A DNA stretch of 64,000 nucleotides from NCBI GenBank assembly GCA_016875395.1, contig VGRF01000008.1:62001-126000 (forward strand), read 5' to 3'. Below the pieces are notes generated by a model. The model ran no database searches. It saw only the letters and a list, made by a program, of their open reading frames with translations, and was not told the DNA's origin. The position numbers were made by a program, and so were the translations under genes. Source of the stretch: Deltaproteobacteria bacterium. GTDB taxonomy: Bacteria > Myxococcota_A > UBA9160 > UBA6930. Each line of letters opens with the position of its first letter. Position 1 is the stretch's first letter. This document shows positions 16,242-44,376 of the stretch, piece after piece.

Positions 16242-16730
16242 TTAATTCCTCGGCCCGACGAGCGGCTGGCGCTTCTCTTTGGCGTAGTCCTTGCGCAGCG
16301 GGTGGCCCTCGAACTCTTCGTAGAGCAGGATGCGGCGCAGATCGGGGTGGCCCGCAAAGCGAATCCCGTAGAGGTCCCACACCTCGCGCTCCATCCAGTT
16401 CGCCGACGGCCACAGCTCGCACAGCGTCGCGATCTCCGGCGACTTCTCGCCGACGCGCGCCTTCACGCGCAGGCGCTTGTTCCGCGGCACGGAATAGAGG
16501 TGGTAGACCATCTCGAAACGCGGCTCTTCGCCGAGATAGTCGACCGCCGTGACGTCCGTGAGCATGTCGAACTGGCATTCGCCGTCGTCGCGCAGGAAGC
16601 GCATCACGTCGACGAGGCGAGCGGGATCCACGATCGCGGTCGCGTCACCGAGGTTCGCGTGCGTGTTCTTCAGCGCGCTGCCGTGCATCTCGATCAACCG
16701 CTTGAGCGCCGCAGAGCCGAAGTCTTCCAT
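16242..16730 (-). CDS. nuoC: NADH-quinone oxidoreductase subunit C
   Basis: 162 residues of the 30-kDa subunit. FDMLTDVTAVDYLGEEPRFE, the central WMEREVWDLYGIRFAGHPDL and the terminal GHPLRKDYAKE are the conserved family segments. NuoC pairs with NuoD in the peripheral arm of complex I. It is followed directly by nuoD; a repeat with a strong hairpin separates it from nuoI upstream. Confidence 0.96.
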   Translation of the reverse strand: MEDFGSAALKRLIEMHGSALKNTHANLGDATAIVDPARLVDVMRFLRDDGECQFDMLTDVTAVDYLGEEPRFEMVYHLYSVPRNKRLRVKARVGEKSPEIATLCELWPSANWMEREVWDLYGIRFAGHPDLRRILLYEEFEGHPLRKDYAKEKRQPLVGPRN

Positions 16731-16740
16731 CTTTACGACT

Positions 16741-16804
16741 CTCCGTTCGCCTTCGGCTCACTGCGCGCCGGCTGCACCGCTTCGCGGTGCTGGCCGGCTT
16801 GCGC
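16741..16804 (+). repeat. Short dispersed repeat with hairpin, copy 2
   Basis: It starts CTCCGTTCGCC, contains CTCACTGCGCG, then a long hairpin (stem arms 16767-16780 and 16784-16798 around TTC) and ends CTTGCGC. It lies in the 126-base gap between nuoI and nuoC, so it is probably transcribed within the operon. Confidence 0.6.
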
Positions 16805-16856
16805 TTCTCGAGCTGCGGTCGGTCGTGACTCGGCGGCGGCTCTCGAGCACGTGCAT

Positions 16857-22505: not shown

Positions 22506-23417
22506 TCAGCGCTGCGCGAGCTGCTCCGCGTGGTACGAGCTGCGCACCAGCGGTCCCGCGGCCACATCCCGGAACCCGAGGGCGCGCGCGAAGTCTGCGA
22601 ACGCGTCGAACTCGGCGGGGCTCACGTAGCGGTCGACCGGCAAGTGATCGGCAGAAGGCCGCAGGTACTGCCCCATCGTGAGCAGCGAGACGCCGGCGGC
22701 GCGCAGGTCCGCGAGCGCCTGGCGAATCTCGTCGTCGCGCTCGCCCATGCCGAGGATCAGGCCCGACTTGGTGGGGATGTCGGGGCGCAGCTCACCGGCA
22801 CGGCGCAGCACGAACAGCGAGCGCTCGTAGCTCGCCGCCGGGCGCACGCGGCGCTGGAGGCGCGCCACCGTCTCGAGGTTGTGGTTGAGCACGTCGGGGC
22901 CCGCATCGAGCACGGCCGCTAGCGCCGCTTCGTCGCCCTGATAATCCGCGATCAGCACCTCGACTCCGGTGCCGGGGCAGCGCCGCCGGATCGCGCGCAC
23001 CGTCGCGGCCATCTGCGCGGCGCCGCCGTCGGCGAGGTCGTCGCGCGCGACGCAGGTCACGACGGCGAACTTGAGCCCGAGCTGCTCGACCGCTCTGGCG
23101 ACGCGCGCGGGCTCGAAGGGATCGAGCGCCTCGGGCCGCCCCGTCGCGACGTCGCAAAAGCCGCAGCGCCGCGTGCAGTCGTTGCCGCCGATCATGAACG
23201 TGGCGGTGCCGCGCGACCAGCACTCCGAGAGATTCGGGCAGCTCGCCGAGGAACAGACCGTGTGGAGCTTCTCGTCGCGCACGATCTGGTGCACGCGCTC
23301 GAGCTCGGGCGTGGTGCGCACGCGCACCTTCAGCCACGGCGGCTTCGCGCCGCGGTCCGTCGGCACGGCGCGATTTTCCTGCGGCCGTGCCACGCGCTGG
23401 TCCGGCGGGCGCGTCAC
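22506..23417 (-). CDS. lipA: Lipoyl synthase
   Basis: 303 residues. The auxiliary-cluster cysteines CSSASCPNLSEC (C55, C60, C66) and the radical-SAM motif CTRRCGFC (C81, C85, C88) are both present, and the C-terminal RSSYHAEQL holds the serine ligand of the auxiliary cluster. LipA inserts two sulfurs into the octanoyl group carried by lipoyl domains. I chose the GTG at 23417 because it overlaps the lipB stop as GTGA and gives the family length. It acts on the E2 encoded just upstream at 24455. Confidence 0.96.
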   Translation of the reverse strand: MTRPPDQRVARPQENRAVPTDRGAKPPWLKVRVRTTPELERVHQIVRDEKLHTVCSSASCPNLSECWSRGTATFMIGGNDCTRRCGFCDVATGRPEALDPFEPARVARAVEQLGLKFAVVTCVARDDLADGGAAQMAATVRAIRRRCPGTGVEVLIADYQGDEAALAAVLDAGPDVLNHNLETVARLQRRVRPAASYERSLFVLRRAGELRPDIPTKSGLILGMGERDDEIRQALADLRAAGVSLLTMGQYLRPSADHLPVDRYVSPAEFDAFADFARALGFRDVAAGPLVRSSYHAEQLAQR

Positions 23418-24166
23418 GCGAGCGCCCGCTCGAATGCCGCGCCGACGCGCTCGCGCGCGCTCGCGAAGAGCGAGCGCTCCGCCGCGCTGCCGAACTCGCT
23501 TGTCAGGGCGAGCTCGCGCGCGACCGAGGTCATCGTGACGCCAGAGAGTCCGCACGGCACGATGTCGCCGAAGCCGGCGAGATCGGGCGTCACGTTGAGC
23601 GCGAAGCCGTGGTAGGTGATCCAGCCCTTCAGGCCCACGCCGATCGACGCGATCTTGCGCTGGCCGCGTTCCCTTCGCTCGGCTGCGCCTCGCTGCGCGC
23701 GCGACTCCGTCGCGCTTGCGGCCGCCTGCGCGGACCTTGGCGGGATCGAGTCATCCACGAACACGCCGGTCATTCCTTCGACGCGCTTCGCCGGCACGCC
23801 CAGCTCCGCGAGCGCCTCGATCAAGCACGCCTCGATGCCGCGCAGCCAGAGCGACACGTCCTGCGCGCCGCGCGCCGCGAGGTCCGCGATGACGTAGCCG
23901 ACGAGCTGCCCGGGGCCGTGCCACGTGACGTCGCCGCCGCGCGCGATCTCGTGCACGGCGACGCCGCGCGCGGCGAGCTCGGCGCGCGGCGTGAGCAAGT
24001 TCTCGGGCTTCGCGCTGCGGCCGAGCGTGACGACGGGCGGATGCTCGAGCAGCAGCAGACGATCGGGCCCGCCCGCCCGCCGCGCTTCGACGGCCGCGAG
24101 CTGGCGCGCGAGCGCGTCGTCGTACGCGACGGTGCCGAGCCAGCGGGTCTCGAGCGCGAGGGCCAT
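23414..24166 (-). CDS. lipB: Octanoyltransferase with repeat-derived insertion
   Basis: 250 residues. GGDVTWHGPGQLVGY, the catalytic lysine in RKIASIGVGLK, WITYHGFALNV and the nucleophilic cysteine in DIVPCGLSG are all intact. LipB moves octanoate from acyl carrier protein to lipoyl domains. Between VFVDDS and RKIASIG there are about 29 extra arginine- and alanine-rich residues, where family members have only a few. That insert is encoded by a dispersed repeat (23673-23722). The frame is kept, so the protein may tolerate it as a surface loop near the active-site lysine. The ATG at 24166 is the family start. Confidence 0.92.
   Translation of the reverse strand: MALALETRWLGTVAYDDALARQLAAVEARRAGGPDRLLLLEHPPVVTLGRSAKPENLLTPRAELAARGVAVHEIARGGDVTWHGPGQLVGYVIADLAARGAQDVSLWLRGIEACLIEALAELGVPAKRVEGMTGVFVDDSIPPRSAQAAASATESRAQRGAAERRERGQRKIASIGVGLKGWITYHGFALNVTPDLAGFGDIVPCGLSGVTMTSVARELALTSEFGSAAERSLFASARERVGAAFERALA
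23673..23722 (+). repeat. Short dispersed repeat inside lipB, copy 3
   Basis: It reads CTTCGCTCGGCT, then CTCGCTGCGCG, a perfect hairpin GCGCGAC-TCC-GTCGCGC (23699-23715) and GCTTGCGGC. The first 28 bases differ by one from 44459-44486. It is wholly coding (minus strand) and in frame within lipB. Confidence 0.75.
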
Positions 24167-24176
24167 TTCTTGCGAG

Positions 24177-24242
24177 CTCCGCTCGGCCTCGCCTTGCCGC
24201 GCGCGACCTGCACCGGCGGCGCCGTCGCGGGTCGCTTGCGGC
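24177..24242 (+). repeat. Short dispersed repeat upstream of lipB, copy 4
   Basis: It begins CTCCGCTCGG, has CTTGCCGCGCGC in place of the usual CTCGCTGCGCG, then GCGACC...GGTCGC as a hairpin stem, and ends TTGCGGC. It lies 10 bases upstream of the lipB start, so it forms the lipB leader. Confidence 0.55.
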
Positions 24243-24284
24243 TCCTCGAGCCGGATTCGGTCGGGGCTTCTCGGTCGGAAGGTT

Positions 24285-44302: not shown

Positions 44303-44376
44303 GGCGGCCCAACATAGCCGCGACCCGATCGACTCCGGGCTGCGCAGGGATCGCGCGGCCAGATTTCACCGCGCAT

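Follow-up and report, generated by a model that had tools for sequence, protein, structure and literature searches.

The lipB locus

The window, by which we mean the whole 64,000-nt stretch of DNA analysed here, carries lipB and lipA next to each other on the minus strand (Table 1). LipB scored 132 bits against TIGR00214, the lipB equivalog profile (cut-off 83.55), and contains 26 extra residues, RSAQAAASATESRAQRGAAERRERGQ, with native loop residues (SIPP) on one side and the RKIASIG strand on the other. Since exactly these 26 residues are missing from the relatives L082 and L083 when aligned with the window LipB, the insert, which is real, spans 23660-23737 rather than the about 29 residues at 23661-23748 given in a preliminary description of this DNA. 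Besides the own genome, 46 of 59 relatives gave a LipB match, and in all 29 of those 46 for which the loop from GVFV to RKIASIG was measured it was 6-17 residues long (median 8), as compared to 32 residues in the window LipB. None of these 29 relatives shares the insert, a finding that in the preliminary description would have counted as a refutation, and the solved LipB structures 1w66 and 2qht are likewise without it.

Table 1. Coordinates in the window of lipB, its insert and the associated repeat features.
Feature	Position	Strand	Remarks
Leader-type copy	16727-16826		fold z -3.97
lipA, lipoyl synthase	22506-23366	minus	adjoins lipB downstream; start codon uncertain
lipB, octanoyltransferase	23414-24166	minus	250 aa; open ORF, NCBIfam profile
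Cys205 codon	23552-23554	minus	in PCGLSG
Lys171 codon	23654-23656	minus	in RKIASIG; directly after R170, the last neighbour of the insert
In-frame insert	23660-23737	minus	78 nt, 26 codons, residues 144-169; gap in aligned relatives
Repeat copy within insert	23662-23723	plus	62 nt; antisense to lipB
Terminal-stem arms	23662-23667, 23718-23723		GGCCGC and partner GCGGCC; predicted fold, lipB copy only
Repeat core	23676-23699	plus	24 nt; zero mismatches to pattern; contains hairpin 1
Hairpin 1	23681-23689		GGC-TGC-GCC; inside core
Hairpin 2	23699-23715		GCGCGAC-TCC-GTCGCGC, perfect 7 bp; arms 23699-23705 and 23709-23715
Leader-type copy at lipB	24163-24266	plus	next to lipB start codon, upstream; core 24180-24203, 3 mismatches

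Several claims of the preliminary description could be confirmed at this locus. The repeat does lie in frame inside lipB, as the 250-aa reading frame is open and the insert includes a member of a dispersed family, and the perfect 7-bp hairpin is present. The catalytic residues had been called intact, and indeed Lys171 and Cys205, the catalytic residues in LipB biochemistry, are present and invariant across a five-sequence LipB alignment. Structural modelling, proposed at the time as a check, was performed with the window LipB and four relatives. The LipB model reached a pTM of 0.86 and a mean pLDDT of 87.3, and its top Foldseek matches were the LipB structures 1w66 and 2qhs. The pLDDT was 48-57 in the ten-residue blocks spanning 141-170 and 94 in block 171-180, which starts at Lys171. 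In the model the fold is intact and the insert forms a loop of low confidence adjacent to the catalytic strand, where it is predicted to lengthen a turn of variable length that stops one residue short of the RKIASIG lysine. On the other hand, the description of LipB as essential and of the insert as tolerated was not supported, as the genome has a second gene with an LplA-B catalytic domain (C1:241471, 38.8 bits). No internal duplication was found when searched for at the insert site, and a search of the window against Rfam returned tRNA as the sole match.

A dispersed repeat with two hairpins

The core pattern had 116 matches in the 4.5-Mb genome when at most one mismatch was allowed and 153 with at most two, compared to 0 and 1, respectively, for the reversed pattern. 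A similar scan of 340 kb of contig C1 gave 17 matches against 0 in three order-3 Markov shuffles, and the best other copies were 84-100% identical to the lipB insert over 28-59 nt. Head-to-tail arrays with units of about 45 nt also occur, for example at 44372, 44417 and 44462 of the window.

From the genome stretches taken, 112 distinct copies (at most two mismatches) were examined. The repeat carries two hairpins, one of which is free in sequence. Hairpin 1 was paired in 106 of the copies, by G-C in 59 and by C-G in 47, and had no Watson-Crick pair in the other 6, the search pattern having let the variable position be G or C independently on each side. Hairpin 2 lies between CTGCGC and TTGC and is often just GC-TTC-GC; longer stems differ in sequence from copy to copy, as in GCGCGAC/GTCGCGC of lipB, GCGACGCCG/CGGCGTCGC and GCGTTGCCG/CGGCAACGC. 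It was unparsable in 11 of the 112 copies, and some arms pair poorly. For the 39 copies with hairpins of 13-34 nt, to which the energy test was confined, the mean fold energy was -12.85 kcal/mol, versus -8.40 (sd 0.48) when halves were swapped between copies of similar length. The observed energy was not reached in any of 500 such exchanges, indicating that pairing is conserved while the arm sequence varies. Arms that change sequence yet still pair suggest that it is the shape which is constrained.

Genes contain fewer copies than their share of the DNA would predict, and copy orientation is biased relative to transcription. Within 464 kb of contiguous sequence (the window, 340 kb of C1 and 60 kb of C3, picked partly for known copies), 7 of 27 copies overlapped called genes, whereas about 89% of this DNA is coding (P=3e-14; genes called with a simple codon-score script, not a standard gene finder). 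Among intergenic copies between codirectional genes, 46 were antisense and 9 sense.

In-frame copies in other conserved genes

Beyond what the preliminary description covered, in-frame copies also lie within other conserved genes of the genome. As judged by alignment with homologues, at least six conserved genes carry such copies, namely lipB, murC and the genes of an APH-type kinase, an ABC transporter ATPase, a Gfo/Idh oxidoreductase and a BKACE enzyme. MurC (C18:80557-82050, L151; TIGR01082, 536 bits, cut-off 335) has its copy at about residues 148-180, and 17 of 19 relatives align solely on either side of this region. The kinase has two copies at residues 180-204, with homologue gaps that coincide with the repeat, and gaps at the repeat were also seen in the ATPase (residues 67-95), the oxidoreductase (16 residues) and the BKACE enzyme, the Pfam match of which extends over residues 4-308 for profile positions 1-274. 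A DUF1015 gene and an alpha/beta-hydrolase gene probably carry in-frame copies too; relatives of the former align through the insert, the best one being about 12 residues shorter, and the alignment of most relatives of the latter begins at about residue 22-30.

All eight insertions, lipB included, are antisense, and seven share one reading frame with ASEARSEAKPSEV-like peptides, lipB alone using the frame of RAQRGAAERRERG. With one-third expected, the chance of seven in eight falling in one frame is 0.0026. This count omits C1:21084 (2 mismatches, sense, within a gene) as a presumed chance match and includes C14:93179, which was added by hand because residue 15 of 287 falls outside the interior limits of the script; overlaps at N- or C-termini were not scored as insertions since start sites are uncertain. 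Translation of the consensus in the antisense direction gives a near-neutral peptide in the favoured frame, a basic one in the second and a strongly basic one that terminates at a stop in the third. The sense frames either contain a stop or encode a more hydrophobic peptide.

In other genomes of the order, 45 of 58 distinct copies were intergenic. Eight genes had candidate antisense interior copies, all in the favoured frame, and one of these eight has a second copy in a different frame; one further gene had a sense copy. Several genic copies in these genomes sit in Pro/Ala-rich linkers or near the N-terminus.

Distribution among genomes and relation to Y1 transposases

The core (at most one mismatch) was present in 27 of 59 relatives besides the own genome, but very unevenly, with 0 matches in nearly all of family f4 and 101 in G024. 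Across the phylum, an exact core was found in 22 of 281 genomes apart from the own one (23 of 282 with it), which belong to the own order, to the sister family f12 of the same class and to the more distant family f22. A plasmid search for the core gave no match. Three IMG/VR viral contigs (L216-L218) contain an exact core, and these may be carriers or misassigned host DNA.

Y1 (RAYT-like) transposases were considered as partners of the repeat. The own Y1 gene (L081 1268-2357, C6:88585 region), which was matched in one of two scans with the same model, has copies of a different short repeat, GGGACGTACGTGCA, on either side, and its locus has zero copies of the lipB-type repeat. Among four Y1 loci of relatives, one copy was seen at about 1.4 kb (G030) and one at about 5 kb (G022), with none in G007 and G021, and 5 of the 15 genomes with at least 10 copies had no Y1 gene. 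Based on the own locus, the Y1 transposase was rejected as the partner; yet, contrary to expectation, Y1 number and copy number were positively correlated over the 59 relatives (Spearman 0.40, P=0.002, without correction for kinship), so that a link of the repeat to Y1 enzymes is possible. No parent element was found in a search that covered Y1 transposases only.

Comparison with known palindromic repeats

The preliminary description likened the insert to Rickettsia palindromic elements (RPEs). These are palindromic repeats that lie between and inside genes and are translated in frame, are Rickettsia-specific and measure 105-146 bp, and Gmk, an enzyme containing an RPE, was reported to be active (PMC2229807). 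The likeness stands as far as mode of action is concerned, the lipB-type repeat likewise being in frame within conserved protein genes. It does not extend to identity, as the size and host of RPEs differ from those of a 62-nt repeat in a 78-nt insert of a Myxococcota-type lineage; the repeat is thus a separate, shorter family in another phylum.

REPs of the GTAG and CGTC superfamilies are described as short high-copy palindromes that are mainly intergenic and at times in frame in genes of several phyla, with alternative complementary residues in their stems (PMC3733652). The lipB-type repeat is similarly short, palindromic and high-copy (153 core matches), mostly intergenic and in part intragenic. 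However, it has no regular GTAG or CGTC tag: by a crude test, GTAG and CGTC occurred within 28 nt after the core in 15 and 5 of 112 copies, respectively, and within 45 nt before it in 10 and 11. It further differs from REPs by its two hairpins, one of free sequence, and its head-to-tail arrays, and the association with RAYT (Y1) genes that characterises GTAG REPs was not seen.

Insertions that add in-frame residues to ORFs are reported for the QMITEs of Coxiella (PMC5896051). The lipB-type repeat resembles QMITEs and bacterial MITEs in this effect. MITEs are regarded as derivatives of insertion sequences, whereas a parent element was not found for the present repeat among the Y1 transposases looked for. 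A possible terminal inverted repeat, the GGCCGC/GCGGCC pair, was seen in the predicted lipB fold. Given the Rickettsia, REP and Coxiella precedents, in-frame palindromic repeats in proteins are a known kind, and no description of the lipB-type repeat was found in the open-access literature searched.

Origin of the lipB insert

We consider it probable, at roughly 80%, that the 26 codons include one copy of a REP/MITE-like, non-autonomous repeat, which was inserted after the split from the sampled relatives. The repeat would spread by copying or insertion, aided by its hairpins and a putative enzyme, and selection would purge most copies that land in genes. Surviving genic copies would be those with lengths in multiples of three, in antisense orientation and usually in the ASEARSEAKPSEV-like frame, which would yield a hydrophilic, near-neutral linker, and the flexibility of the loop and its position away from the active site would let LipB stay active. 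Speaking against this explanation, the lipB insert itself breaks the frame rule. Movement was not seen either, with no empty site at the DNA level, no sure target duplication (lipB junctions inspected by eye) and no mobilising enzyme.

Alternatively, the repeat could be mainly a functional RNA module acting in mRNA stability, processing or translation, and the lipB copy could be kept for its RNA structure with the peptide as a by-product. Such a module would fit the 46:9 orientation bias relative to transcription, the hairpins maintained by compensating changes and the leader-type variant located just before start codons, that of lipB among them, with a z of -3.97 at window 16727-16826. However, the whole lipB insert as RNA had a stability z of +0.90 and hence no extra stability over dinucleotide shuffles, the host genes are unrelated, copy number is very uneven among relatives with 0 in many, and the skew to one frame points to selection on the peptide, so we regard this explanation as unlikely, although worth keeping in mind. 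Somewhat more speculative still is a novel type of mobile element that would be recognised by its shape, a fixed core hairpin plus a hairpin of free sequence, and not by its sequence. It would possibly move in the transcribed orientation, either single-stranded or as RNA, steadily supplying flexible protein linkers and 5' leaders in the class.

If the insert inactivated LipB, lipB would be decaying while the second LplA/B-like gene or scavenging took over. Such a gene does exist (38.8 bits), but an ORF intact over 250 codons and adjoining lipA, the retention of Lys171 and Cys205 and the intact modelled fold make decay improbable. Growth of the LipB loop through slippage or a local duplication in GC-rich DNA, with a likeness to the repeat that is compositional, is in our view highly improbable; a loop length varying from 6 to 17 residues in relatives and a genome of about 70% G+C would suit such growth, but lipB has a core with zero mismatches, the reversed pattern gave 0 to 1 matches per genome and the insert site showed no internal duplication. 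A misjoining of the repeat into lipB during assembly, conceivable in a genome of 96 contigs where short repeats can produce misjoins, is hardly credible for an insert of just 78 nt with lipB on both flanks, and random misjoins would not keep the frame in lipB and other genes.

The occurrence of a hairpin repeat in frame in several conserved enzymes, including those of lipoylation and peptidoglycan synthesis, represents a natural experiment far from Rickettsia and shows how hairpin repeats can add loops to proteins. Because the insertions favour one orientation and one frame, it becomes directly testable how palindromic DNA turns into protein sequence.

Variants of the repeat

The leader-type variant is longer than the lipB insert copy type, contains a long stem that covaries and is interrupted by an internal loop, and terminates in a conserved GGAG-TCG-AAAG immediately before start codons. 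Besides those in the window, copies were located at C1:42827, C1:133791, C1:170447, C6:11695, C10:18036, C32:36641 and C47:14327. This variant resembles a 5' leader that several genes share and that includes a ribosome-binding site. A riboswitch-like leader was considered and rejected, as the six leader-type copies caught by the filter precede genes that by eye seem unrelated, which makes a single ligand unlikely.

Another variant, often found right after stop codons, runs into a conserved GAGATCGAACAGTGGCCTCG (C23:3976, C15:31183, C8:23567, C21:23448, C14:61131, C11:77595, C37:10323 and C32:30394). Finally, a composite intergenic element was observed in which the core is preceded by a conserved TCGAACGC...AAGC-GGTCGGCCGAGGC, followed in most by GATTCGCCGACGCG; its sites are C1:195641, C24:55859, C15:53912, C54:4923, C13:51388, C37:15084, C40:22795 and C10:63980, and it may represent either a small RNA or a larger repeat.
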